Made by a program: the position numbers and the translations under genes. From assembly GCF_003173735.1 (NCBI RefSeq), contig NZ_CP029551.1, positions 3,186,001-3,250,000 on the forward strand: a stretch of 64,000 nt of DNA, given 5' to 3'. This document shows, one piece after another, positions 15,740-28,688 of the stretch; the first letter of the stretch is position 1; each line of letters begins with the position of its first letter. The notes under the pieces are model-generated. The model searched no databases. It had not been told where the DNA came from and saw only the letters and a program-made list of their open reading frames with translations. Origin of the DNA: Methylobacterium radiodurans (GTDB taxonomy: Bacteria > Pseudomonadota > Alphaproteobacteria > Rhizobiales > Beijerinckiaceae).

Positions 15740-16633
15740 TCAGCCCGCCGGCGCGTAGCGTCGCACCATCTCGGCGCAGAAGGCGGCGTACTCGGCCGGG
15801 TCGAGCGGCGGGCTGGTGTGGTGCGGGCTGATGCCCCGGTGCTCGGGCGTGAAGCAGAAGGTCAGCGTCACGGAGAAGTCGCGCAGGGCCGCCATCTGGC
15901 GGTCGAACCAGTCGAGCGCGTTCGGCCGGAAGCTGTCGGCCCAGGAGAGCCCGGTGCGCAGGTGCGTCACGCCGAGGCGCTTCATCCAGTCGACCGCCGC
16001 GTCGAGGCGGTGGTCCTCGAAGTGAAACCACTGGCACAGGCCGAGATCGGGCGTGTGCCGGGCGAATTCCTCCAGCGCCAGCTTCGGCGTGCCGTCCTGG
16101 CGCAGCAGGCCCATGTGGAAGTGCCGGTAGTAGGAGGAGCCCTCGGCCTCCTTGTGGCGGGTGGTGGCCTCCCATTCCCGCGGCAGGTCGTAGAGGCTGT
16201 ACCAGTGGATGCGCGGGGCCTGGCCCTTCAGCAGCTCCGCCGTGCGGGCGCAGCCCCAGGCCTGGACCTCCTCGGCACCGAAGCTCGACACGCCGACCTC
16301 CGAGACCCAGACGGGGAGCGCGGTTACCGCCCGGATCTCGGCGATCCGCGCGGGCCATTCGTGGATCTGCCAGAGGTTCCAGTCGAGCGGGAAGCCGTGG
16401 ACCGCGACCGCCTCCAGGTGCTCCAGCACGCCGCGGGACGCCATGTTGCGGATGAAGACCGGATCGATCGGCGAGATGCCGCCGAGCACCCGCGGCAGGG
16501 TCGGGTTGACCGCGCGGATCGCGCGGGCCGCCCCCTTCACCATCTCGGCGAAGAGCATCCAGTCGGGGTCGAGCTCCGGGTCCCAGTGCGACTTGTTGTT
16601 GGGCTCGTTCCAGAGCATCACGGCTTCGATCAT
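15740..16633 (-). CDS. Clan GH-A glycoside hydrolase-like protein
   Basis: 297-aa TIM-barrel protein and last gene of the twelve-gene sugar operon. LWNEPN near residue 7 carries the acid/base Glu of clan GH-A, and VWVSEVG near residue 122 carries the nucleophile Glu, as in GH39/GH5-like beta-xylosidases. No signal peptide, so it is predicted cytoplasmic. The barrel appears to start abruptly at the first Glu strand, shorter than classical GH39 enzymes. Start and the methyltransferase stop overlap as ATGA. A xylosidase-type activity would suit the UDP-xylose-synthase-like gene in the same operon, but substrate is inferred. Confidence 0.72.
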   Translation of the reverse strand: MIEAVMLWNEPNNKSHWDPELDPDWMLFAEMVKGAARAIRAVNPTLPRVLGGISPIDPVFIRNMASRGVLEHLEAVAVHGFPLDWNLWQIHEWPARIAEIRAVTALPVWVSEVGVSSFGAEEVQAWGCARTAELLKGQAPRIHWYSLYDLPREWEATTRHKEAEGSSYYRHFHMGLLRQDGTPKLALEEFARHTPDLGLCQWFHFEDHRLDAAVDWMKRLGVTHLRTGLSWADSFRPNALDWFDRQMAALRDFSVTLTFCFTPEHRGISPHHTSPPLDPAEYAAFCAEMVRRYAPAG

Positions 16634-17415
16634 CGGCCCCCCTCGGCAGCGCGTGCCGGATAGACCGCCCCCGGTGCGTAGGGGAGCGGGGCGCTGCGGC
16701 AGATATAGACCTCGGCCTCGGGCCGGCTCTCGATGCGGAACCCTGAGGCCCGCAGCATCGCCTCGATGCCGGCGCGGTTGGGGATCCACCAGTTCGTCCA
16801 GTCGTGCGCGTATTCGCGCTCGACGAAGTGCAGCCGCGGGTAACCGGGCCGCTCGAACTGGTCCATCTCCCAGAAGTCGTAATCCTCCGCCAGCGGCTCG
16901 ACCGCGGGCGAGCCGCGCAGCATCGACTGGAACACGAAGAGGTCGGCCGCGACGTGCTCGCGGATCAGGTCGAGGGCCAGCAGCGGGTGGCGCAGGTGGT
17001 AGAGCACCCCCATGAACAGCACCACGTCGAAGCGCTCGGCCAGCGCCCCGACATCGTAGACGGAGAGGATACGGAACTCGACGTCGAGCCCGAGGCGCGC
17101 GGCGGCGAAGCGGCCTTGCGCGAGGTAATGCTCGTCGGAATCGAGCCCGAGCACGCGGGCGGCGCCGCGCCGCTTCATCTCCAGGCTGTAGAAGCCGCCG
17201 TTGCAGCCGATGTCGAGCACGCTGCGGCCGGTGAGGTCCTGCGGGATCGCGTGCGCGAAGCGGGCCCACTTCACCGCCGGGTAGTCGCCGAGGAAGTGGT
17301 CGGGCGCGGTCGCGACGCCGTCGATCGCGATGTTGTGGAACCAGGGCGCGAGCGCCGCTATCTCGCGGGCGAGGGCGGATCGGTCGTCCTGCGGGCCCGA
17401 GGCGACTGCGCTCAT
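16630..17415 (-). CDS. Class I SAM methyltransferase, CmoB-like
   Basis: 261-aa SAM-dependent methyltransferase. The SAM-binding motif I is VLDIGCNGGFYSLEMKRRGA (about 69-88), with an acidic motif II at LGLDSDE. Its N-terminus (WFHNIAIDGV, HFLGDYP) resembles CmoB and the TIGR04290 methyltransferase family. CmoB itself modifies tRNA wobble uridine, but the context of sugar enzymes suggests a glycan or sugar nucleotide substrate instead (inference). Its start overlaps the phosphatase stop (ATGA), and its stop overlaps the glycoside hydrolase start. Confidence 0.82.
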   Translation of the reverse strand: MSAVASGPQDDRSALAREIAALAPWFHNIAIDGVATAPDHFLGDYPAVKWARFAHAIPQDLTGRSVLDIGCNGGFYSLEMKRRGAARVLGLDSDEHYLAQGRFAAARLGLDVEFRILSVYDVGALAERFDVVLFMGVLYHLRHPLLALDLIREHVAADLFVFQSMLRGSPAVEPLAEDYDFWEMDQFERPGYPRLHFVEREYAHDWTNWWIPNRAGIEAMLRASGFRIESRPEAEVYICRSAPLPYAPGAVYPARAAEGGR

Positions 17416-18014
17416 GCGGGGCTCCGTTCGTTCCAGGCGACGAGCCGGCCGCCGCCGGGCCAGAGCGCGAATTCGCAGAGTCCAGCCGGCGACAGGGCGA
17501 GGCTGTCGTAGGCGTCGAGCCCGAGTCCGAGCAGCGCGAGCCCGGCGATCCGGATCGGCTCGGCATGGCTCACCAGGATCACGGGCGGCCCATCATGGCG
17601 GAAGCGGTCGAGCAGGGCGCCCATCCGGGCGGCGATCTCGGCGGCGCTCTCGCCCTCGGGCGGGCGGGCGCTGCCGCGGGCGGCGTTCCAGTGCCCCCAG
17701 CCGGGTTCGCCGTGCAGCTCGGCCAGCGGGCGGCCGGTCCAGGCGCCGACATCGACCTCGTGCAGGGCCTCCTCGGTCTCGACCCCGAGCCCCAGCGCCT
17801 CCGCAACGGCCGCGGCCGTCTCCTGGGCGCGCTCCAGCGGGCTCGCGAGGAGGCGGGGGCGATCCGCCCCGTCGAGGCGGGCGGTGATCAGGCGCGCGGC
17901 GGTCCGGGCCTCGGCGAGGCCGGTCGCGCTGAGGCGGACGCCGGGCATGCGGCCGCACAGGATCCGGTCGAGCCGGTCGTGGCTGCCGTGCCGGAGAAGG
18001 AAGATCTGCCTCAT
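17412..18014 (-). CDS. Histidine phosphatase family protein
   Basis: 200-aa member of the phosphoglycerate-mutase-like histidine phosphatase superfamily. The catalytic RHG triad lies at residues 8-10 (FLLRHGSHDR), the second Arg at about 60 (SPLERAQET), the acid at the DVGAWTGR segment, and the second His at SHAEP near 148. Such enzymes remove phosphate from small metabolites. Following an inositol-3-phosphate synthase in one operon, it might release free inositol or act on another sugar phosphate; this is inference. It is separated from the synthase by a 280-bp repeat-filled gap. Confidence 0.85.
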   Translation of the reverse strand: MRQIFLLRHGSHDRLDRILCGRMPGVRLSATGLAEARTAARLITARLDGADRPRLLASPLERAQETAAAVAEALGLGVETEEALHEVDVGAWTGRPLAELHGEPGWGHWNAARGSARPPEGESAAEIAARMGALLDRFRHDGPPVILVSHAEPIRIAGLALLGLGLDAYDSLALSPAGLCEFALWPGGGRLVAWNERSPA

Positions 18015-18085
18015 GCGGCGGTCCGGGCGGTGCGGCGGCAGCGCTCATCGGTCGGGCTCTCCCCCCGATGAAGGCCACGCGCTTT

Positions 18086-18257
18086 CCCTCCCCCCTCTGC
18101 GGGGGAGGGTACCCTGCGAAGCAGGGGGGGAGAGGGGAACCCGGCTTCCGAAGAGGGCGGAGCAGGCGTGAAGGCCAAAGCTCCATTCTGCCCCGTCGCA
18201 CCCCTCACCCGACCCCTGCTGACGCAGGGGCCACCCTCCCCCGCAGAGGGGGGAGGG
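18086..18257. repeat. Mosaic palindromic element inside the sugar operon
   Basis: The arms 18086-18110 and 18233-18257 are perfect 25-bp inverted copies (each a C-rich, G-rich block around CTCTGCGGGG or its complement). Inner segments around 18111-18130 (CCTGCGAAGCAGG) and 18212-18232 (CCCCTGCTGACGCAGGGG) form further stems. The element fills the only large gap in the twelve-gene operon. It resembles dispersed palindromic repeats of GC-rich Alphaproteobacteria; a related composite lies at 54271-54466. Confidence 0.85.
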
Positions 18258-18294
18258 AGGATCACGCGGGCGGCAGTCGATGGGCCCGCTCTCA

Positions 18295-19382
18295 TCACCC
18301 CTCCTGCCCGGCGGCGAAGCGCAGCGTCCGCGCCCGCGCCTCGGCGTCGGTGAACTGCTCGGGCGGCGCCTTCATGAAGTAGCTCGATGGGCCCACCAGC
18401 GGCCCGCCGACGCCTCGGTCGAGGGCGAGGCGGGCGCAGCGCACGGCGTCGATGACGACGCCGGCCGAGTTCGGCGAGTCCCAGACCTCCAGCTTCAGCT
18501 CGATGTTCAGCGGCACGCCGCCGAAGCCCGAGCCCTCCAGCCGGATCTGCGCCCATTTCCGGTCGGCGAGCCAGGGCACGTGGTCGCTCGGGCCCACATG
18601 GATGTTCTCGGCCGGCATCGGGGCGCCGAGCTGGCTCGTCACCGCGCGGGTCTTCGAGAGCTTCTTCGATTCGAGCCGCTCGCGCTCCAGCATGTTCAGG
18701 AAGTCGGCGTTGCCGCCGAAATTGAGCTGGTAGGTCCGGTCGAGCCGCACGCCGCGCTCGCGGAGCAGGTTGGCCAGAACCCGGTGCACGATGGTGGCGC
18801 CGACCTGGCTCTTGATGTCGTCGCCGACGATCGGCAGTCCCGCCGCACGGAAGCGGGCCGCCCATTCGGGATGGGAGGCGATGAAGACCGGGATGCAGTT
18901 GACGAAGGCGCAGCCGGCAGCCAGCGCCGCCTCCGCGTAGTGCTCGGTCGCCGCCTGCGAGCCCACCGGCAGGTAGGAGACCAGCACCTCGGTGCCGGTG
19001 CGCCGGAGTTCCTCGGCGACATCGACCGGGGGCTCGGGCGCCTCCGGCACGATCCCTTCGAGGTAGCGGCCGATCCCGTCGAAGGTCGGCCCGCGCCGCA
19101 CGGTGACGCCGGTCTCGGGGACCTCGCAGAAGCGGTGGGTGTTGTTCGGCTCGGCCAGGATCGCCGCGGCGAGGTCGCGCCCGACCTTGCGGGCCGAGAC
19201 GTCGAAGGCCGCGACCACCGCGATGTCGCCGACCCGGTAGCCGCCAAGATCCGGGCTCATCAGCCCCGGCACGTCGTCCCCCGGCCCGGCATCGCGGTAG
19301 TGCCGCAGACCCTGCACTAGGGCGGAGGCGCAGTTGCCGACCCCGACGATCCCGACCCGTATGGGCGCGCGTGCCATGATGC

Positions 19383-19386
<4 letters not shown>
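18295..19386 (-). CDS. Inositol-3-phosphate synthase
   Basis: 363-aa NAD-dependent enzyme converting glucose 6-phosphate to inositol 3-phosphate, the committed step of inositol synthesis. The N-terminal dinucleotide loop is [16 protein letters not shown]; the family core includes [20 protein letters not shown] and [12 protein letters not shown]. Length matches the actinobacterial Ino1 type. A GTG at 19386 overlaps the previous stop (GTGA) and an ATG at 19377 is also possible. This gene marks the operon as making or using an inositol derivative. Such synthases are uncommon in Proteobacteria. Confidence 0.92.
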
Positions 19387-20396
<1,010 letters not shown>

Positions 20397-20407
20397 GTTC
20401 ACGCTCC

Positions 20408-21508
20408 TCAACCGGGGACGAATGCGAGATCGGCCGTGCGGCCGCGCGGCCGTGCGCGGCACGCTTCCAGGTGGTCTTCGAGCTCCCGCGCCCGGCAGGC
20501 GGCGCTGTGGCGGGCGAGCACGCGGGCGCGGGCGGCATCGGCCTGGGCGGTCCGCTCCGCCTCCGGCCGCGCCCGCAGGATCTCCAGGACGGCCTCGGGG
20601 CCGTCCGGCGTCAGGATCTCGTGGCCCGGCTCCAGCACGTCGGCGAGGCCGTCCCAGCGGTCGCTGATCAGCGGCGTCCCGCAGGCGGCGGCCTCGAACA
20701 GGCGCACGCTCGGGCTCCAGCCGGCCCGCACCATGTCGGCGCGGGTGACGTTCAGGGTGTAGCGGCTCGCCGCGTAGAAGGCCGGGTGGTCGCCGGGTGC
20801 GAGGTGCTCGATGCGCGCGACGTTGTCGGGCCAGACGAGGTCGGCCGGGTATTGCGGGCCGGCCACCGCGAAGCGGAGGTCCGGCGCGCGGAGCGCCGGC
20901 TCGAGCAGCAGGCGCTCCAGCGCCGGCTGCCGGTCGGGGCTGTAGGTGCCGAGATAGCTGAGATCGTAGCGCGCGGCCCCGCCGAGCGCCGGATAGGCCT
21001 CCGGATCGACCGAGCAGTAGAGCGCGCGGGCGGCGGGCGAGCCGTAGTCCCGCTCCAGCCGCGCCAGGGTTGGGCCGCCCGTGAAGGAGAGGTAGAGGTC
21101 GTAGAGCGCGATCTGCCGAGGGTCGAGATAGGCGCAGGTGCCGGCCTCGAGGGCTGCCAGCGTCACCGGCGTGTCGATGTCGTAGAAGGCGCGGGCGCCT
21201 CGCGCCCAGGCGAGCACCCGGTCTCCCACCGCGATCCCGTCCGGCACGTAGGAGCCGACGATGACCGCATCGGCCGCCACGATCGCCGCGCGGTAGCGCC
21301 CGAGGGCGTCGAGGTCGGCGTAGAGTTCGAGCCGGCAGAAATCCGGTTCGGCCAAGTCGCGGTGGGCGGCGTACCAGGGCACGTCGCGCTCCAGGAACAG
21401 CACCTCGTGGCCGCGCGCCGCGAAGGCCTTCAGGAGGGCACGGTAGGTGGTGGAGTGGCCGTTGCCCCAGGAGGAGGTGAGGCTGAGGCCCAGGACGACG
21501 AGCCTCAT
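20408..21508 (-). CDS. Glycosyltransferase (CgeB-like), paralogue 3
   Basis: 366-aa GT-B-type glycosyltransferase with a C-terminal domain like CgeB/GT1_2 proteins. The N-terminus (SLTSSWGNGHSTTYRALLKA, then RGHEVLFLERD) matches the N-termini of the next two upstream genes, showing tandem duplication. The C-terminal part has RLFEAAACGTPLISDRWDGL, the usual nucleotide-sugar site region. Donor and acceptor unknown. Start and upstream stop overlap as ATGA. Confidence 0.85.
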   Translation of the reverse strand: MRLVVLGLSLTSSWGNGHSTTYRALLKAFAARGHEVLFLERDVPWYAAHRDLAEPDFCRLELYADLDALGRYRAAIVAADAVIVGSYVPDGIAVGDRVLAWARGARAFYDIDTPVTLAALEAGTCAYLDPRQIALYDLYLSFTGGPTLARLERDYGSPAARALYCSVDPEAYPALGGAARYDLSYLGTYSPDRQPALERLLLEPALRAPDLRFAVAGPQYPADLVWPDNVARIEHLAPGDHPAFYAASRYTLNVTRADMVRAGWSPSVRLFEAAACGTPLISDRWDGLADVLEPGHEILTPDGPEAVLEILRARPEAERTAQADAARARVLARHSAACRARELEDHLEACRARPRGRTADLAFVPG

Positions 21509-22620
21509 GCGGTGCTCCGCTCAAGGACGAGGACGCCGCGCTCCGCCTTCTCGGCCGCCGCCTCGCGCAGGATCCGGTCCACCTCCACGCCGCGCAGCGC
21601 GTAGGTGTGCCGGTCGAGAACGCGGGCACGGGCGGCCTCGCCGATGGCGCGGGCGCGCTCGGGCGTCAGCGCCGCGACGTGGTCGGCGACGTCCCGGCCG
21701 TCGCGGGCGACAAGCACCTCGGCGTCCGGCTTCAGGAAGAGGTCGAGCCCCTCCCAGGCGTCGGTGATCAGGCAGGCGCCCGCGCCCGCCGCCTCGAAGA
21801 CCCGGGTGGCGGGCGAGAAGCCCACCGCCGCCATGCTGTCGCGGGCGATGTTGAGCACCGCGCGCGGGCTGGTGTTGAAGGCGTTGTGGTCGCGCGTGCC
21901 GACATGGCCGACGTGGCGGACGTTCGGGGGCAGGCCGCGCGTCTCCCAGCCGCTGCCGCCGAGCAGGAAGGCGCGCTCTGGCAATCGTGCGGCGGCGACC
22001 AGGAAGAAGCGCTCCACCCGCGCCTCGCGATCGGGCAGGCGGTTGCCGAGGAAGGCGAGGTCGGCCGCGAAACGGGGATCGGGCGGGACCGGATGATGCG
22101 TCGCCGGGTCGAGGGCGTTGTAGACCGGAATGCACGCGCGCGCGCCGAAGCCCTCGTAGGCGGCGATCACCGGGGGACCGCCGCCGTAGGTCAGCACCCG
22201 GTCGAGCTGGGACAGGGCCCGGTGCAGGACGTGGCCCGGATCGGCGCGCATCTCGGCGAGCGTCGCCGGGGCGTCGACGTCCCAGAAGATGCGCAGCGCG
22301 CCCGGGTTCGCGGCCGCCAGGATCCCGTCGAGCAGCTCGTCGTCGAACACGCCGACGCCGCTCGCCTTGACCACCACGTCGGCCGCCGCCGCCGCGGCGA
22401 CCACCCGCGCCAAGCCCTCCCCGGTCGCCGGGTAGACCACGACCTCGGCGTAGTCCGGCGGGTCGATGTCGCGGTGGCTCTGCCGGTCGAAGGCGTCGGG
22501 CTCGTAGAAGGTGATGCGGTGGCCGTGGCCCGCCAGGGCCGAGAGGATGCCGCGGTAGTAGGTCGCCGCGCCGTTCCAGTAGGCCGAGAGCAGGCTGGAG
22601 CCGTAGAAGGCGATTCTCAC
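21505..22620 (-). CDS. Glycosyltransferase (CgeB-like), paralogue 2
   Basis: 371-aa glycosyltransferase, paralogous to its two neighbours: N-terminus SSLLSAYWNGAATYYRGI and HGHRITFYEPD. The C-terminal domain has TRVFEAAGAGACLITDAWEG. The GTG at 22620 overlaps the previous stop as GTGA and begins exactly at the shared N-terminal strand MRIAFYG, so it is preferred to the long upstream extension. Predicted cytoplasmic, acting with membrane-bound or soluble acceptor; specificity unknown. Confidence 0.85.
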   Translation of the reverse strand: MRIAFYGSSLLSAYWNGAATYYRGILSALAGHGHRITFYEPDAFDRQSHRDIDPPDYAEVVVYPATGEGLARVVAAAAAADVVVKASGVGVFDDELLDGILAAANPGALRIFWDVDAPATLAEMRADPGHVLHRALSQLDRVLTYGGGPPVIAAYEGFGARACIPVYNALDPATHHPVPPDPRFAADLAFLGNRLPDREARVERFFLVAAARLPERAFLLGGSGWETRGLPPNVRHVGHVGTRDHNAFNTSPRAVLNIARDSMAAVGFSPATRVFEAAGAGACLITDAWEGLDLFLKPDAEVLVARDGRDVADHVAALTPERARAIGEAARARVLDRHTYALRGVEVDRILREAAAEKAERGVLVLERSTA

Positions 22621-23747
22621 GCGGTGGCCTCCAGGGATCGGGGGGCGGGGGCGCGCAGGCCGTCCACGAGGGCGAGCAGTTCCTCGGCCCGGTGGCGGCA
22701 GGTGTGGCGGGCCCGGATCGTGGCGAGGCCGCGGGCGGCGAGCGCCGCGCGCAGGTCCGCGTCCGCCCGCAGGTCCCGCAGGTGGCGCGTCATCTCGGAA
22801 CGGTCGCGGGCCACGAGGTAGTCGGCGCCGGGCGTGAACAGCCCCTCGGCGTCGCTCCAGGGGGCCGAGGCCAGCGGGATGCCGCAGGCCAGCGCCTCGA
22901 AGACCCGGATCGTCGGGATGCCGGGCAGGTGCTCGACGTAGAAGCGGCGCGGCACGTGCACGGTCGCCAGATGCCGGGCGAAGATCCCGGGGGCGGCGGC
23001 GTTCGGGGCCCAGCCGTGGTAGCGGGCACCGCGGGCGCGGAGCGTCGCCAGCGCGGTCTCGGGGTAGCGCACGCCGTAGACGTCGAGGGCTAGGCCGGCC
23101 TCGCGCGCGGGGCCGAACAGGAAGGCGTCGAGTTCCTCTGTGCGCTCGCCGTCGCCCCAGTTGCCGATCCAGACGAGGCCGTCCTGCCGGCCTTCCCGCG
23201 CACTCTCCCCGGCGGGTGGGCGGAACAGCCGGGTGTCGGCGGCCTCGTGCCAGACGAAGGCGCGGGCCCCCCAGCCCTGGCCGCGATAGACCTCCGCCAG
23301 GGTCTCGCCGAAGGCCAGCACGCCGTCGTAGCCCGAGAGATCGAAGCGGCGCATCTCGTGCGGAGCGCTCACCGCACGGTGATGGGTGTCGTGGAACAGC
23401 AGCGTGAAGCGGGCGCCCGCCGCCCGCGCCCGGCCGAGAGCGGCGACGAGGGCCGGCTCGTTCCACTCGTGGACGATGACGAGGTCGGCCTCGGCCGCGC
23501 GCGCGACCACGGGTTCGACGGCGCCGTAGCGGGCGGAGGCGAGGTCCGGATAGGCCGCCCGGTAGGCGTCGAGGCCCGCCGGGCCATGATCGGCCAGGAG
23601 GTTCGCCAAGCTCCAGGCGCCCTCGGGCTCGTAGGCCTCGACCGCGTGGCCGAGGGCGATCAGCTCGCGCAGGACGCCGCGCAGGAAATGGGCGTTGCCG
23701 TGGTTCCAGCAGGATTCGAGCGAGTGGGTGAAGTAGGCGATCCTCAT
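22617..23747 (-). CDS. Glycosyltransferase (CgeB-like), paralogue 1
   Basis: 376-aa glycosyltransferase, third member of the tandem set: N-terminus HSLESCWNHGNAHFLRGVL, then LGHAVEAYEPEG. The C-terminal donor domain has IRVFEALACGIPLASAPWSD followed by an acidic EGLF segment. It overlaps the GT4 gene stop as ATGA and ends overlapping the next GTG start, implying coupled translation. The three paralogues differ enough to suggest different acceptors or linkages. Confidence 0.85.
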   Translation of the reverse strand: MRIAYFTHSLESCWNHGNAHFLRGVLRELIALGHAVEAYEPEGAWSLANLLADHGPAGLDAYRAAYPDLASARYGAVEPVVARAAEADLVIVHEWNEPALVAALGRARAAGARFTLLFHDTHHRAVSAPHEMRRFDLSGYDGVLAFGETLAEVYRGQGWGARAFVWHEAADTRLFRPPAGESAREGRQDGLVWIGNWGDGERTEELDAFLFGPAREAGLALDVYGVRYPETALATLRARGARYHGWAPNAAAPGIFARHLATVHVPRRFYVEHLPGIPTIRVFEALACGIPLASAPWSDAEGLFTPGADYLVARDRSEMTRHLRDLRADADLRAALAARGLATIRARHTCRHRAEELLALVDGLRAPAPRSLEATA

Positions 23748-24931
23748 GCGGCGCCCCCGCGTTCGAGGATCCGCACCACACCCATCCGCGCTCTACCTTC
23801 CCCTGCAGAGGGCGCAGGAAGGGCGTCGTGGTCAGCGGAAGCCAGCAAATCGCGGAACACCGCCAGCACGCCGTCCGCCATCGCGGCGACGCCGTAGCGG
23901 GCGGCGCGCGCGCAGGCGGCCTCGCACAAAGCGGCGCGGCGGGCGGGGTCGGCCATCAGGTCCGCGACGGCCGCGGCCGCGGCGGCATCGTCCTCCGCCT
24001 CCACGAAGAGCGCGGCGCCGTCCCAGAGTTCGCGAAAGCTCGGGATGTCGGAGAGGACGAGGGCGCAAGACGCGCACGCCGCCTCCAGCACCGCGAGGCC
24101 GAAGGGCTCGTAGCGGGCGAGCGAGACGAACACCGGCCGCACGGCGAGCTGCGCGTCGATGCCGGCCTCGTCCAGCCGTCCGAGCAGGCGCAGATGGGCG
24201 GGATCGATCCGCTCGCCGTTCGGCCCCTCGACAGGGCCGGCGGCAAGGACCGGGCAGGGGAGCCGGGCGGCCATTCGGTCGAGCGTGGCGGCGTTCTTGG
24301 CCCCGTCCCAGAGCCGGCCGGCGGTGAAGGCGTGGCCGGCCGGCCCTCCCTGCGGCACGGCATCCGGTCGGTCGCGCCCGTTGCGCACCACGCGGGGCGC
24401 GCGGGCGAGGCCGTAGGCGCGGGCAGTCGCTGCCGCGAAGGCCTCGGTGGGGGCGAGCAGCGCGTCGGCGGCGCGGCAGCCCTCGGCAGCGAGATGCGCC
24501 CGCCAGGAGAGGTCGGCGGGCATCGGTCCGGCACCGCAGGCCTCCCACCACGTCGCGACACAGGAATGGCAGACCGCCACCACCGGCACGGGGAAGCCGG
24601 CGAGCGCGAGCGCCGGGGCGTGCAGGTGGACGAGGTCGGCGCCGAGCTCGCGCGCGAGCCGGGCGAGGGCGGCGGCGGCCCCGCGGACCTCCTCCGGCCG
24701 CCCGGCCGTCCAGTCGAGGGGCAGACCGGTCGGGAGGATCCGGGCGCCGGTGGCGGCCGCGGCCGCGGCGGCGCGCTCCGGCTCGGGCACGGGCCCCAGC
24801 ACCGCGACGGTGACGGCGAGCCCGCGCTGCGTCAGCGCGCCCGCGAGGTCCATGCTGTAGGGCCAGACGCCGCCGAGCGCGTCGGCGCTCATCAGGATGT
24901 GGGGGCGGGCGTGGCGGGCGTTTACCGGCAT
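23744..24931 (-). CDS. GT4-like glycosyltransferase with repeat-derived tail
   Basis: 395-aa GT-B glycosyltransferase of GT4 type: N-terminus HILMSADALGGVWPYSMDLA, C-terminal RYEPFGLAVLEAACASCALV with the EX7E motif. The ATG at 24931 overlaps the end of the radical SAM gene by 10 bp. The final 30 or so residues (after FRDLLA) are encoded by DNA that matches the palindromic element at 18233-18250 in 16 of 18 bases (23795-23812, opposite in phase), so the C-terminal tail looks like captured repeat sequence. Donor and acceptor unknown. Confidence 0.85.
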   Translation of the reverse strand: MPVNARHARPHILMSADALGGVWPYSMDLAGALTQRGLAVTVAVLGPVPEPERAAAAAAATGARILPTGLPLDWTAGRPEEVRGAAAALARLARELGADLVHLHAPALALAGFPVPVVAVCHSCVATWWEACGAGPMPADLSWRAHLAAEGCRAADALLAPTEAFAAATARAYGLARAPRVVRNGRDRPDAVPQGGPAGHAFTAGRLWDGAKNAATLDRMAARLPCPVLAAGPVEGPNGERIDPAHLRLLGRLDEAGIDAQLAVRPVFVSLARYEPFGLAVLEAACASCALVLSDIPSFRELWDGAALFVEAEDDAAAAAAVADLMADPARRAALCEAACARAARYGVAAMADGVLAVFRDLLASADHDALPAPSAGEGRARMGVVRILERGGAA

Positions 24932-26217
24932 CCGCAGGCCGCCTCCAGCTCGCGCAAGGGCAGGGGGCGCTCCTCCTGGATGTCGCTGAAACGCTCGAAC
25001 TGGCCGAGATAATGGGCGTGCGCCCGCTCCCAGGCCTCGTCGTCGGGCTCGCCCCAGAGGCGGCGGTAGTCGGGGGAGCTCGGATAGGGGTAGAGCGGCA
25101 CGGGATCGTTCGCCCAGACGCCCTGGGCGCGCAGGCGCTCGCGCCACGCGGCCACCATCCCGGGATCGTCGCCCGCCACCGCGATCAGGTTCGCCTGCAC
25201 GAAGGGCACGGTCTTGCGCGCCCGGATCAGGCGCTCGGCGAGGTCGTCGGTCGAGGCGCGGCAGCGCTTGTCCAGCGCCGCGCGGCCCTTCTCCGTCAGG
25301 CTCTCCACGCCGGCCTCGATCGAGACGCAGCCCGCCGCGCCCAGCCGGTCCAGCATGTCGGGCTTCCAGAGGTCGATCCGTGTCTGGATGCCGAAGCGGA
25401 TGTCGCGGGCGGCGAGCGCGTCGAGGAGGGGCGCCTGCGGCAGGAAGATCTCGTCGACGAAGTAGAGATAGGTCACGCCCTGGGCGATCAACCCGTCGAT
25501 CTCGTCGAGCAGGATCCCGAGGTCGCGCCTGCGATACGCGTCGCGGAAATCGATCTTCGCGCAGAAGCTGCAGGTGTAGGGGCAGCCGCGCGAGGCCTCG
25601 ACCTCGGCGCCCGGCCCGTCCGGCTCTCCGTCGAAGCGGTGGTGGTGGTGCCGGTGGCGGGCGATCCAGGCATCGGGCCAGCGGAGCGCCGGCAGGTCGG
25701 TGAAGCGGCTCGCGTGCGGGCCGCCGGTCACCGCAGACGTGCCGTCGGCCCGCCGATAGGCGAGGGCGGGTACCCGGGCGAGGTCGTCCGTGCCGGCCAG
25801 CAGCGGCAGGATCTCCTCGCACTCGCCGCGCACCACGGCGTCGCAGCCGAGCTTCTCCAGCGCCGGGCGCGGCGTCGCCGAGCCGTGCGGCCCGACCGCC
25901 ACCGTGCGCCCGCCCGCCGTGCCGAGGGCGTCCAGGAAGGCGCGGGGCACGCGCAGCTCCGGCGGGGCGCAGCGCCAGAACAGGTAGGTCGGCGCGGTCG
26001 CCACCACCGTCATGCCGGGGCCGAAGGCCGCGACCCGCCGGGCGGCCTCCTCGGCGGAGAGCCCTTCGAGATGCGCGTCGACGGTCAGCGTGTCGTGCCC
26101 GGCGGACGCCAGGAGCGCCGCGCCGTAGCCGAGTTCGAGCGGCAGATGGGGCTCGCGGCAGCCGAAATAGATGCTGTTGCGGTAGTCCCAGGGCGGGTTG
26201 ACGAGGGCGACTCTCAT
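24922..26217 (-). CDS. B12-binding radical SAM protein of a sugar operon
   Basis: 431-aa enzyme with an N-terminal cobalamin-binding domain and a radical SAM core. The DxHxxG corrinoid motif is intact (D47, H49, G52 in VDAHLEG), and the 4Fe-4S triad is C212-PYT-C216-SF-C219. Related class B proteins methylate unactivated carbons or rearrange substrates. I recall TIGR04295 as the model for the version belonging to a Rhizobiales twelve-gene oligosaccharide system; not checked here. The histidine run HRHHHHR near residue 188 is unusual. Start overlaps the epimerase stop as ATGA. Confidence 0.88.
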   Translation of the reverse strand: MRVALVNPPWDYRNSIYFGCREPHLPLELGYGAALLASAGHDTLTVDAHLEGLSAEEAARRVAAFGPGMTVVATAPTYLFWRCAPPELRVPRAFLDALGTAGGRTVAVGPHGSATPRPALEKLGCDAVVRGECEEILPLLAGTDDLARVPALAYRRADGTSAVTGGPHASRFTDLPALRWPDAWIARHRHHHHRFDGEPDGPGAEVEASRGCPYTCSFCAKIDFRDAYRRRDLGILLDEIDGLIAQGVTYLYFVDEIFLPQAPLLDALAARDIRFGIQTRIDLWKPDMLDRLGAAGCVSIEAGVESLTEKGRAALDKRCRASTDDLAERLIRARKTVPFVQANLIAVAGDDPGMVAAWRERLRAQGVWANDPVPLYPYPSSPDYRRLWGEPDDEAWERAHAHYLGQFERFSDIQEERPLPLRELEAACGCR

Positions 26218-27308
26218 TCGGCCGCCCCCGCGAAATCCACCTTGGCCGGAGCCGGCGTGGCGGGTCGCGTCTCGCGGAGCCAGCCGTAGAGGTCGGCCAC
26301 GCCCTCGCGCCAGGGCGTGGGAGCGGGCAGGTCGAGAGCCGCCCGCAGGCGCGTGGTGTCGGAGACGTAGTAGCGCTGGTCGCCGGGGCGCCAGTCGCGG
26401 AAGGCCCGCGCGACCGGGCGCCCGGTCAGGCGCTCGACATGGTCGAGGAAGGCCAGCAGGCTCACCGCGTTGGCCGGCCCGCCGCCGAGGTTGAACGCCC
26501 GGCCGGCCACCGCGTCGATCCGCCGGAGCGCGGCGCAGTAGGCGTTCACCGCGTCCCGCACGTGCAGCACGTCGCGGATCTGGCGCCCGTCGCCGTAGAT
26601 CGTGACCGGCCGGCCTTCGAGAGCCCGGATCAGGAAGTGGGCGACCCAGCCCTGGTCCTCGGTGCCCATCTGGCGCGGGCCGTAGATGCAGCTCATCCGC
26701 AGCACCGCCGCCGGGACGCGGTAGGAGCGGGCGTAGTCGAGCACGTACTGGTCGGCCGCGCCCTTGGAGCAGCCGTAGGGGGTGTAGAAGTCGAGCGGCC
26801 GGTCCTCGCCGACGCCGCGCGCGCGCACGGATTCGTCCTCCGGCAGGTAGCGGTCGCCCTCCTCCCGCAGGGCGATGTCCGGCAGGGCGCCGTAGACCTT
26901 GTTGGTCGAGGCGAAGAGCACGGGCACCGGGCGGGAGAGCGCCCGCACGGCCTCCAGGAGGTTCAGCGTGCCACCGATATTGACCTCCATGTCGGCGCGC
27001 GGGTCGGCGAGGCTCGTCGTCACCGCGACCTGGGCGGCGAAGTGGAAGCAGGCGCCCGCCTCGCGCACCGCGCGGGCGAGCTCGCCCGCGTCGCGGATGT
27101 CGGCGACGATCGCGGTGATCCGGTCCGGATGGCGCGCCTTCAGCCAAGCGAGGTTCGCCTCGACGCCCGCCCGCGCCAGCGCGTCGTAGACGATGACCGG
27201 GCGGCCCTCGCCGGCCAGCCGGTCGGCGAGGTTGGCGCCGACGAAGCCGGCCCCGCCGGTGATCAGGACCGGGCGGTCGCCGCCCGGGTTTGCCGCCCCC
27301 GCACTCAC
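26214..27308 (-). CDS. NAD-dependent epimerase, CDP-paratose 2-epimerase-like
   Basis: 364-aa extended SDR enzyme. The Rossmann loop is ITGGAGFVGANL; AAQVAVTTSLADPR, STNKVYG and YGCSKGAADQYV followed by MSCIYGPRQMGTEDQGWVAHF strongly resemble CDP-paratose/CDP-tyvelose 2-epimerases. That family inverts C2 of a dideoxy sugar nucleotide. No CDP-glucose pathway genes are nearby, so the true substrate is uncertain. The GTG at 27308 overlaps the preceding stop (GTGA) and gives a short lead to the Rossmann strand. Confidence 0.87.
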   Translation of the reverse strand: MSAGAANPGGDRPVLITGGAGFVGANLADRLAGEGRPVIVYDALARAGVEANLAWLKARHPDRITAIVADIRDAGELARAVREAGACFHFAAQVAVTTSLADPRADMEVNIGGTLNLLEAVRALSRPVPVLFASTNKVYGALPDIALREEGDRYLPEDESVRARGVGEDRPLDFYTPYGCSKGAADQYVLDYARSYRVPAAVLRMSCIYGPRQMGTEDQGWVAHFLIRALEGRPVTIYGDGRQIRDVLHVRDAVNAYCAALRRIDAVAGRAFNLGGGPANAVSLLAFLDHVERLTGRPVARAFRDWRPGDQRYYVSDTTRLRAALDLPAPTPWREGVADLYGWLRETRPATPAPAKVDFAGAAE

Positions 27309-28414
27309 GCCACCAGCCCCCGCATCTCCAGCTCGCGCCGCGCCTCGGCGACGCGGTCGATCGCCTGCTGCTCGGCGACCCAGGCGGCGAGTTCGGTGAG
27401 CCCCTCGGCGAAGTCCCGGCACGGCGCGTAGCCGAGCTCGTCCCGGATGCGGGAGATGTCGGCGATGCAGTGACGGATGTCGCCGAGCCGGGCCTGACCG
27501 GTGATCTCGGGCCCGAGATCCTCGCGGCCCATCGCGGCGGCCAGCAGTTCGGCCACCTCGGTGACGCTGCGGTCCTGCCCGCTGCCGACATTGTAGACCT
27601 GACCGGCCGCGGCCGGATGTTCGAGTGCCAGCACGAAGGCCTGGGCCACGTCCTCGACATGGACGAAGTCGCGCCGTTGCGCCCCGTCCTCGAAGACCAT
27701 CGGGCGCTGGCCGTTGTGGATGCGCGCGGCGAAGATCGCCAGCACGCCCGTATAGGGGTTCGAGAGCGCCTGGCCCGGCCCGTAGGCGTTCCAGAGCCGC
27801 AGCGCCACGCCCTCCATGCCGTAGGCCGGCGCGAGGGTGAGCGTCAGGCGCTCCTGCATGTACTTGGTCAGTGCGTAGACCGAGGCGAGGGCGGGGCGTT
27901 TGCTCTCCGGCGTCGGCACGGGGCGCATCGGCCGGCCCTCGCCGTCGAGCGGGTCCCAGGGCTCGCCGGGTCGGCGGGGTTTTCGGACGGCGTCCTCGAC
28001 GGTCCGGCCGTCCTCCGTACGGTACAGCCCCTCGCCGTAGACGCTCATCGAGGAGGCGACGACGACCCGCCGCACCGGCCGCTCGATCAGTCCCTGGAAG
28101 AGCTGCGCCGTGCCGCAATCGTTGACCGAGACGTAGCGCTCGACCGCGTACATGCTCTGCCCGACCCCGACCTCGGCGGCGAGGTGGACAACGTGGTCGG
28201 CGCCCTCGAGGGCGCGGGCGACCGCCTCCGCGTCGCGCACGTCGCCCGCGACGAACTCGACCTCGGGGGGAAGCACGGTGCCGGAGCCGCTGCCGTGCAC
28301 CTGCTCGATCAGGCTGTCCAAGACCCGAACCCGGTAGCCGCGCCGAAGCAGGGCGGTCGCGAGATGGCGGCCGATGAAGCCGGCTCCCCCTGTGATCAGG
28401 ACAAGATCTGCCAC
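27305..28414 (-). CDS. NAD-dependent epimerase, dTDP-rhamnose 4-epimerase-like
   Basis: 369-aa extended SDR enzyme, first gene of the twelve-gene operon. Rossmann loop ITGGAGFIGRHL; SSMSVYGEG and YALTKYMQE give the catalytic Ser/Tyr/Lys; GPGQALSNPYTGVLAIFAAR and FEDGAQRRDFVHVEDVA match the dTDP-L-rhamnose 4-epimerase group. The GTG at 28414 is chosen because the Rossmann strand begins immediately after it, with GGAG nearby; TTG or ATG codons further upstream cannot be excluded. Substrate is inferred. Confidence 0.85.
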   Translation of the reverse strand: MADLVLITGGAGFIGRHLATALLRRGYRVRVLDSLIEQVHGSGSGTVLPPEVEFVAGDVRDAEAVARALEGADHVVHLAAEVGVGQSMYAVERYVSVNDCGTAQLFQGLIERPVRRVVVASSMSVYGEGLYRTEDGRTVEDAVRKPRRPGEPWDPLDGEGRPMRPVPTPESKRPALASVYALTKYMQERLTLTLAPAYGMEGVALRLWNAYGPGQALSNPYTGVLAIFAARIHNGQRPMVFEDGAQRRDFVHVEDVAQAFVLALEHPAAAGQVYNVGSGQDRSVTEVAELLAAAMGREDLGPEITGQARLGDIRHCIADISRIRDELGYAPCRDFAEGLTELAAWVAEQQAIDRVAEARRELEMRGLVA

Positions 28415-28560
28415 GCGCTCCAGCCGCTCCCCATCGTGCAAGGTCGCCTCGACGACGACAATATCCAGGCAAACATTCTGACTTAACATAAGTAAGCCAG
28501 GATCATTGTCCGAATAATACGACCTTCGCGAAGCTAATGCTCCTTGCGCAGGCAATCGGG
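28415..28560 (-). promoter_or_regulatory. Probable promoter region of the twelve-gene operon
   Basis: The sequence just upstream of the first operon gene contains an AT-rich stretch (about 28465-28545) unlike the surrounding DNA, with a 10-bp palindrome CTTCGCGAAG at 28524-28533 and several TA-rich hexamers (TATTAT, TTATGT, TGTTAA on the minus strand). No single -35/-10 pair is convincing. By position it should drive the operon. Confidence 0.35.
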
Positions 28561-28688
28561 CATGGGGATCTTTGTTCCTGAGCTTCTCACACGGCCAAGC
28601 CGTGGTGCGCCTCCCGCCTCCGATAGCCCCGCGCTTCGTTCGGACGCACGGTCGAGGGCGGCGTTCCGGCCCCGCATGCCGCGGTGCC

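Follow-up and report, generated by a model that had tools for sequence, protein, structure and literature searches.

The protein families TIGR04295, radical S-adenosylmethionine (rSAM) proteins with a B12-binding domain, and TIGR04290, methyltransferases, mark a gene neighbourhood that we take to be the 'rhizo-twelve' system; neither this name nor the two families were found by name in the open-access literature. A precedent for the enzyme exchange reported below comes from the 2-deoxystreptamine pathways, in which a cyclitol is acted upon either by the rSAM enzyme BtrN, which to our knowledge has no B12 domain, or by a zinc dehydrogenase of the NeoA type, and GH70, as compared with GH13, is a known natural case of a circularly permuted glycosidase barrel. 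The mycobacterial 3-O-methylmannose polysaccharide cluster comprises MeT1, pMeT3, ManT and MmpH: its methylated product is intracellular, a glycosyltransferase acts together with methyltransferases to build it, and the cluster's own hydrolase recycles it into primers (PMC9883506). Here, we analyse an operon of Methylobacterium radiodurans that encodes both marker families and lies at positions 15740–28414 of a stretch of 64,000 nucleotides (contig NZ_CP029551.1, positions 3,186,001 to 3,250,000; hereafter the window).

We propose, with a probability of roughly 0.48, that this operon family would encode a stress-induced cytoplasmic pathway for a soluble intracellular oligosaccharide or glycoside, xylose-bearing, O-methylated and, where an inositol-3-phosphate synthase (MIPS) is present, inositol-based. 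Every reaction, the product, its location and its role in stress are what we infer from comparing sequences.

The operon

The host genome comprises 5.54 Mb in a single contig, and the rSAM protein encoded there shares 95% identity with the counterpart from Methylobacterium gregans. As the initial annotation had stated, the locus consists of twelve consecutive open reading frames, all on the minus strand, running from g12 (28414) as the first gene to g1 (15740) as the last; a recount of the junctions also gave the same result as before, with 4-base ATGA or GTGA overlaps at eight of eleven and a 10-base overlap, a 5-base gap and a 280-base gap at the others.

27305–28414, minus strand: g12, first gene, extended short-chain dehydrogenase/reductase (SDR; NAD-dependent epimerase/dehydratase); PF01370, 186.1 bits; best PDB match 6wjb, 158 bits
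26214–27308, minus strand: g11, nucleotide-sugar C2-epimerase-like SDR; 261 bits to the CDP-tyvelose 2-epimerase 1orr
24922–26217, minus strand: g10, B12-binding-domain radical SAM protein (B12_rSAM_oligo); TIGR04295, model positions 1–422 of 422, 713.9 bits against a curated cut-off of 400
23744–24931, minus strand: g9, GT4-type glycosyltransferase; PF13439, 67.5 bits, and PF00534, 42.7 bits
22617–23747, minus strand: g8, glycosyltransferase; PF13524, 120.2 bits
21505–22620, minus strand: g7, glycosyltransferase; PF13524, 129.2 bits
20408–21508, minus strand: g6, glycosyltransferase; PF13524, 131.5 bits
19383–20402, minus strand: g5, SDR resembling UDP-glucuronate decarboxylase (UDP-xylose synthase, UXS); 351.9 bits to 4gll, against 155 for the next class
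18295–19386, minus strand: g4, MIPS of the actinobacterial type; PF01658, 121.8 bits (cut-off 27); 1gr0, 469 bits
18015–18294, minus strand: gap of 280 bases between g4 and g3 with a 26-nt perfect inverted repeat (arms 18085–18110 and 18233–18258)
17412–18014, minus strand: g3, histidine phosphatase superfamily branch 1 (His_Phos_1); PF00300, 133.2 bits
16630–17415, minus strand: g2, methyltransferase; TIGR04290, model positions 2–226 of 226, 377.4 bits against a curated cut-off of 300
15740–16633, minus strand: g1, predicted circularly permuted clan GH-A/PslG-like hydrolase (β-4 to β-8, then β-1 to β-3), from a match of its profile to PDB in swapped pieces

Both marker families, which the initial annotation had suggested checking at g10 and g2, were thus recovered above their cut-offs, and the profile and PDB scores agree with its family calls for two epimerases, four glycosyltransferases, a UDP-xylose-synthase-like enzyme, an inositol-3-phosphate synthase, a histidine phosphatase and a GH-A hydrolase. 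The nearest relatives of g11 are CDP-tyvelose 2-epimerases (261 and 250 bits, against 131 bits for the next SDR epimerase class), of which family it is a predicted member, and in most loci g12 adjoins g11 and g10.

Exchange of the radical SAM protein for an oxidoreductase pair

A search of plasmid records with g1 returned 146 records, mostly Sinorhizobium and Rhizobium, and a search with the rSAM protein (E ≤1e-40) returned 11, none of them Sinorhizobium or Rhizobium. Twelve rSAM-less loci were hand-picked from the 146 records together with one locus that has the rSAM gene (L175), the sequences covered for named strains being plasmids. In 11 of these 12 loci, the system's SDR, glycosyltransferase and hydrolase genes have two further genes close by, one for a zinc-binding dehydrogenase and one for an oxidoreductase of the Gfo/Idh/MocA type; the twelfth (L174) showed the MIPS-side module alone in the stretch examined. 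Relatives bearing the pair occur on Sinorhizobium pSymB and in Rhizobium, Paracoccus, Roseomonas and Xanthomonas, and in Xanthomonas sacchari the pair occupies the very slot of the rSAM gene, between g11 and g9. Amongst 108 fetched rSAM loci (104 distinct places, eight of less than 10 kb) no Gfo gene was found, and one gave a weak dehydrogenase match of 63 bits. The oxidoreductase has IolG as its best family (92.5 bits) and the dehydrogenase IolM as its second-best (76.1 bits), both under cut-off.

At the genome level, we compared 35 TIGR04290-positive genomes, made up of 22 from an order sample of 234 genomes and 14 from the class sample described below, with one shared: 23 encode the rSAM protein, ten a Gfo orthologue, none both and two neither. 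The orthologue is hence present in 0 of 23 genomes with the rSAM protein versus 10 of 12 without it (Fisher 3.6e-7), a count that covers Gfo and not its dehydrogenase partner; it scores 370.9–418.6 bits in the ten, as against 90.9 bits for the best stray match in rSAM genomes. On a tree of the glycosyltransferase g7 (59 rows; odd-numbered loci with neither the dehydrogenase pair nor the canonical order, in the sense used for g1 below, were left out), the label of rSAM or pair takes four changes, a number that well-supported branches also enforce, so that at least four switches took place. As a matter of gene content, the rSAM protein and the pair almost certainly replace one another. The view of the initial annotation that the rSAM protein marks the system thus has to be loosened, given that 12 of the 35 methyltransferase-positive genomes lack it. 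We also rejected the idea that rSAM protein and methyltransferase are inseparable, which had been seen in 13 of 13 cases of the class sample: it was contradicted by the rSAM-less plasmid loci and then by the order sample, where 11 of 22 methyltransferase-positive genomes encode the rSAM protein.

Because methyl transfer would not be expected of a pair of dehydrogenases, and because the exchange is repeated, the step catalysed by g10 would likely be a redox-type isomerisation. Methylases make up the majority of the B12-radical SAM families characterised so far, and the same proteins could also be read in that way: g10 would then be a cobalamin-dependent C-methyltransferase, the pair lineages would make a differently tailored, unmethylated product and the two gene sets would compete for the same sugar position. 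The sequence of g10 speaks to both. As the initial annotation had reported, the window protein possesses DxHxxG (D47, H49, G52) and CxxxCxxC (C212, C216, C219), and across an alignment of 52 family members the three cluster cysteines and D47 are invariant (52/52) and H49 is found in 39; together with a match to the B12-binding domain of 24.2 bits, under the cut-off of 32.1, and with the methylase HpnR (49.8 bits) amongst the relatives, this would suit a methylase. The complete DxHxxG is, however, found in only 24 of the 52, so that the motif noted in the window does not extend to the family as a whole; this conserved lower-ligand motif is not found in every cobalamin-dependent radical SAM methylase. 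The nearest other curated family is BchE, an oxidative cyclase (67.9 bits), the nearest solved structure is 6fd2, an enzyme of the apramycin pathway (26.7 bits) that we assume to be AprD4, and the two enzymes found in its place come from dehydrogenase families. We regard C-methylation as a rather unlikely role, whilst the isomerisation agrees with BchE as nearest family, 6fd2 as nearest structure and the loose DxHxxG; a non-methylating g10 is what we consider likely. If so, the reaction class of an orphan B12 radical SAM family would have been predicted from comparative genomics alone.

A histidine cluster precedes the radical SAM domain of g10 (residues 188–194), with H188, H191, H192, H193 and R194 in 52/52 members and H190 in 49/52. 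The rSAM tree was built with L106 and L058 left out and includes one fragment row, L017.

Gene content, modules and host range

Named-species genomes yielded 454 stretches with an rSAM relative (tblastn, E ≤1e-3; not all necessarily TIGR04295). The best 80 were retained, and gene presence was counted in the 53 of these 80 named loci that offer more than 20 kb of sequence: g12 53, g8 53, g9 51, g11 49, g7 47, g6 47, g1 44, g4 43, g2 42, g3 40 and g5 29. Since the gene set is conserved across genomes, it is not a chance assembly. The neighbourhood comparison called for by the initial annotation therefore upheld co-conservation, but of a modular kind, from 53/53 for g12 and g8 down to 29/53 for g5, and strict co-conservation of all twelve genes was rejected. 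Two modules, frequently divergent, can be recognised: g12 g11 g10 g9 g8 g7 g6 (g5) and g4 g3 g2 g1. Six Methylobacterium loci (L042, L043 and L046–L049, each above 20 kb) contain only g12 to g8 together.

The proposed restriction to Rhizobiales proved too narrow, as carriers were also found in Azospirillum, Acetobacteraceae, Caulobacteraceae, Sphingomonadaceae (Sphingomonas) and Geminicoccaceae, and Xanthomonas carries an rSAM-less form of the locus. Judged by record names, the carriers include bacteria of the phyllosphere, lichens, deserts and root nodules, amongst them Sinorhizobium meliloti. A class-wide sample of 289 genomes contained the rSAM protein in 13, the methyltransferase in 14 (including all 13) and the hydrolase in 12 (all within the 13); many of the sampled genomes are drafts, and absences of genes may therefore be gaps. 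A viral home for the system was rejected, one scan of viral contigs having given no rSAM relative.

A protein of ~580 residues (hyp579) recurs beside the system, in 25 of the 108 rSAM loci and in 6 of the 12 rSAM-less loci (for example L093:3284-5050 (-) and L169:9397-11130 (-)). It had no Pfam or NCBIfam match, and by eye a phosphoribosyltransferase-like portion precedes a kinase-like one; as a search of the window genome, run without a positive control, gave no match, it is not counted as part of the operon here. An extended form of the system (L107:6807-11624; L070:1027-1947) adds a fifth PF13524 glycosyltransferase and a sugar nucleotidyltransferase, and in Bradyrhizobium also a phosphopentomutase (510.5 bits), which suggests a nucleotide-activated pentose.

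A probable circular permutation of the hydrolase g1

The permutation of the hydrolase is an addition to what the initial annotation had described. At its N-terminus g1 starts with MIEAVMLWNEPN, the acid/base motif that comes after strand β-4 in clan GH-A barrels, and its C-terminal segment resembles β-1 to β-3, which departs from the β-1 to β-8 strand order of the clan. When a profile of 30 g1 sequences was compared with PDB, PslG (5bx9) was found in two pieces of swapped order, profile 3–185 corresponding to PslG 132–320 and profile 197–295, weak by itself at 7.4 bits, to PslG 21–130. The permuted order was seen in all 56 g1 homologues of the 80 named loci, and WNEPN lies at a constant offset from the start, full-length, in 55 of them, the 56th being cut by a contig end. 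Both E10 (within WNEPN) and E112 are invariant in 30/30 g1 sequences; assigned by homology, E10 would be the acid/base glutamate (N-E-P, after β-4) and E112 the nucleophile glutamate at β-7, as is characteristic of clan GH-A. Five relatives of canonical order conserve both glutamates and NEPNN, and against these five native g1 aligns as two swapped pieces, rotated g1 as one. We are all but certain that g1 is a circularly permuted clan GH-A barrel that starts at β-4 and ends with β-1 to β-3, and it presumably forms a closed permuted barrel. No family in Pfam reached its cut-off with g1 (GH39, PF01229, 12.5 bits against a gathering cut-off of 26); for this reason the name 'beta-xylosidase' given in the source records was rejected and g1 is kept only as GH-A/PslG-like.

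The canonical order has not disappeared from the system: it was detected in six class-sample genomes and, in these six and two plasmid records, the canonical hydrolase domain forms an N-terminal fusion to g11, as in TMO_RS19500 of Tistrella (682 residues) and P4R82_23805 of Geminicoccaceae. Taking all fetched loci, the canonical order is fused to g11, the NAD-dependent C2-epimerase, in 12 of 12 distinct loci, where g4 and g3 are absent from the sequence stretch examined, and the permuted order is unfused in all 18 loci inspected for fusion. Genome-wide, none of the 6 genomes with the canonical order has MIPS, and 5 of the 6 with the permuted order have it (Fisher 0.015). Both the rSAM protein and the pair are found with the permuted as well as with the canonical fused hydrolase, giving all four combinations, so that the modules assort independently. 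The permuted g1 and the canonical fused form would make a natural before/after pair for the permutation of a TIM-barrel glycosidase; judged by titles or the beginnings of abstracts, no permuted clan GH-A enzyme was found among the open-access papers listed.

EcfG-type promoters and the link to stress

The EcfG consensus of M. extorquens is given as GAAC-N16,17-C/GGTT (PMC4814048), and we used the pattern GGAAC-N15-18-GTT as EcfG consensus in accordance with PMC6599016 and PMC4814048. A candidate site lies upstream of the operon:

28553–28578, minus strand: EcfG-like site GGAACAAAGATCCCCATGCCCGATTG, 164 nt upstream of g12; the −35 element fits, the −10 element is off consensus

Amongst 18 aligned Methylobacterium upstream regions, GGAACAAAG is common to 12. 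Across the named loci the pattern precedes g12 in 14 of 73 cases and g4 in 9 of 55, counts that exclude the window itself and make the matching loci a minority, versus 1.4% of 57,002 background stretches; internal controls gave 0/78 for g10 and 1/50 for g2, with a third, g8, taken up below. The consensus was also recognised in 5 of 18 upstream stretches taken from further loci. The rSAM-less set (L163–L175, whose promoter rows include two S. meliloti strains and the one rSAM locus, L175) gave matches for all three transcription units, with 8/12 for g12, 8/10 for the dehydrogenase and 5/8 for g4 (MIPS) against a background of 4.1% that contains the sites themselves, and 1/6 each for the controls g2 and hyp579.

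Some loci have genes for topoisomerase IB, Ku/LigD, Mn-catalase and DUF1003 proteins as neighbours, and in Sphingomonas melonis, Topo IB, Ku and catalases are EcfG-dependent (PMC6599016). Taken together, EcfG-type stress control is quite probable for the operon family, whilst for the window's own copy the balance tips only slightly in its favour. Many target genes of the general stress response have no known function, and if the link holds, the pathway would add a new kind of protectant to this response in alphaproteobacteria.

Side by side with this we noted that on the Tistrella plasmid pTM1 an EcfG-like sigma factor gene lies immediately upstream of the operon (L143:7866-8636; PhyR_sigma2, 53.7 bits), that topoisomerase IB is encoded within the same operon (L143:18969-20045) and that a cluster from nine loci (L068:2995-4173 and eight others), the scanned member of which is a DNA topoisomerase IB, adjoins the operon.

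Predicted pathway and location of the product

In the pathway that we propose, the general stress response would induce a cytoplasmic operon for a small soluble oligosaccharide or glycoside. MIPS (g4) would produce inositol phosphate, which g9 or another glycosyltransferase would glycosylate and from which g3 would strip the phosphate to leave a primer; g5, g11 and g12 would provide UDP-xylose and an unusual nucleotide sugar, g6 to g9 would lengthen the chain and g2 would O-methylate or cap it. The rSAM protein g10 would act on a sugar or cyclitol in a single redox-neutral isomerisation, an epimerisation being the likeliest kind, for which other lineages would use the zinc-binding dehydrogenase and the Gfo/Idh/MocA oxidoreductase. 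Finally, g1 would cleave the product for recycling or for control of chain length.

None of the twelve proteins contains a membrane-like segment (no 19-residue stretch above 1.91 on the Kyte-Doolittle scale) and g1 begins directly at β-4, leaving no room for a signal peptide; together with the epimerase fusion, this is why assembly and cleavage are placed in the cytoplasm. The twelve genes include no exporter or polymerase, in agreement with the initial annotation, and the intracellular product that it had listed as one option is favoured by the missing membrane-like segments and signal peptide; on balance, we lean towards it. The same facts bear on the alternative in which the operon would contribute to a surface glycan, a capsule or a glycolipid that is exported by a general system encoded elsewhere. 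Its hydrolase is homologous to PslG, which we understand to be part of the Psl exopolysaccharide system, and four or five glycosyltransferases, the pyruvyl transferase and FrhB-like genes near loci in rhizobia and Paracoccus and the lipopolysaccharide-biosynthesis genes by the Rhizobium etli locus would all fit such a product; but neither the twelve genes nor the annotated system genes of the plasmid loci include a flippase, polymerase, exporter or lipid-phosphate transferase, the nine of 59 recurrent neighbour clusters that were scanned held no exporter, and the absence of membrane-like segments and of a signal peptide on the hydrolase also argues against export, which makes this alternative unlikely.

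A further alternative, a cofactor or redox buffer built on a glycosyl-inositol in the manner of mycothiol, would account for the actinobacterial-type MIPS, the GT4-type enzyme and the phosphatase in a single operon, for the stress promoters and for a neighbour cluster, present by four loci, of which the single member scanned is a PIG-L deacetylase. Yet no MshC/MshD-like ligase or acetyltransferase is found among the twelve genes, PIG-L is rare, MIPS is absent from the fused-hydrolase type and the glycosyltransferases are too many for a pseudodisaccharide; we judge this alternative very improbable. As an observation in its own right, genes for PIG-L (GlcNAc-PI de-N-acetylase) and a GT4-type enzyme lie near the hydrolase in a few loci (L083:11618-12700; L092:1312-2169), which recalls the mycothiol genes.

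Several observations weigh against the proposed stress-induced intracellular pathway. At the window's own promoter site the −35 element is present, but the −10 element reads GATT instead of GTT and so departs from the EcfG consensus, and the full consensus occurs in 2 of the 18 aligned Methylobacterium upstream regions (L027, L038). The g8 control gave matches in 7 of 72 cases: all seven sites lie at one position (141–144 nt) in Roseomonadaceae loci, four of them Belnapia, and are probably one inherited coincidence, which also means that related loci are not independent and inflate the promoter counts. Two of the 12 rSAM-less genomes (G793 and G137) have neither the rSAM protein nor Gfo, and the rSAM and pair gene sets could lead to different products instead of performing the same step. 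Since MIPS is missing from all six canonical-hydrolase genomes and from G147, inositol is not a universal component, and as an obligate component it was rejected for the canonical type, where MIPS is absent genome-wide. Lastly, a polysaccharide pyruvyl transferase and an FrhB-like gene lie near the permuted hydrolase in L163, L165, L168, L169, L171 and L174 (rhizobia, Paracoccus), whereas none of the 108 rSAM loci showed these two genes, and the locus of Rhizobium etli is followed within a few kb by a group of lipopolysaccharide-biosynthesis genes; by these neighbours, a surface polysaccharide is hinted at.

One can go further and combine the parts: TIGR04295 would be a new kind of radical SAM protein, a B12-domain epimerase/isomerase betrayed by the repeated one-for-two exchange, in a general-stress pathway to an intracellular, protective inositol/xylose oligosaccharide, with a permuted GH-A hydrolase beside a canonical epimerase fusion. 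That all of this holds at once is doubtful, and we put it forward tentatively. Even so, a cluster for an unnamed product becomes a testable pathway in the genetic model strain S. meliloti 1021, whose pSymB locus lies within 239,009–275,896 of NC_003078.1.

The inverted repeat between g4 and g3 lies in the sole large gap of the operon, with 122 nt separating its arms, and no further copy was found in a search of the window. A second MIPS gene is located elsewhere in the window genome (G000:C1:3492118-3492435), and the congener G283, which has no rSAM gene, likewise has one MIPS gene.

Comparison with known systems

With the 'rhizo-twelve' system the locus shares both marker families, and the twelve-gene content is present in the window and recurrent elsewhere; it differs in that the system described here is modular, reaches beyond Rhizobiales, is partly rSAM-less, has a hydrolase that appears permuted or is fused and has EcfG-type promoters. 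The likeness to BtrN and NeoA lies in an rSAM protein standing in for a zinc-binding dehydrogenase, the difference being that here one rSAM protein is set against a pair of oxidoreductases. PslG is the best solved relative of g1 and both halves of g1 align to it, but its strand order is canonical, whereas g1 is apparently permuted, shorter and begins at β-4; the permuted barrel of GH70 is that of clan GH-H glucansucrases, whereas g1 belongs to clan GH-A by homology. The mycobacterial methylmannose polysaccharide cluster is the closest to the operon in logic, a likeness that is not a claim of homology, and unlike that cluster the operon includes UXS, two epimerases, an rSAM protein or dehydrogenase pair, MIPS and a phosphatase.

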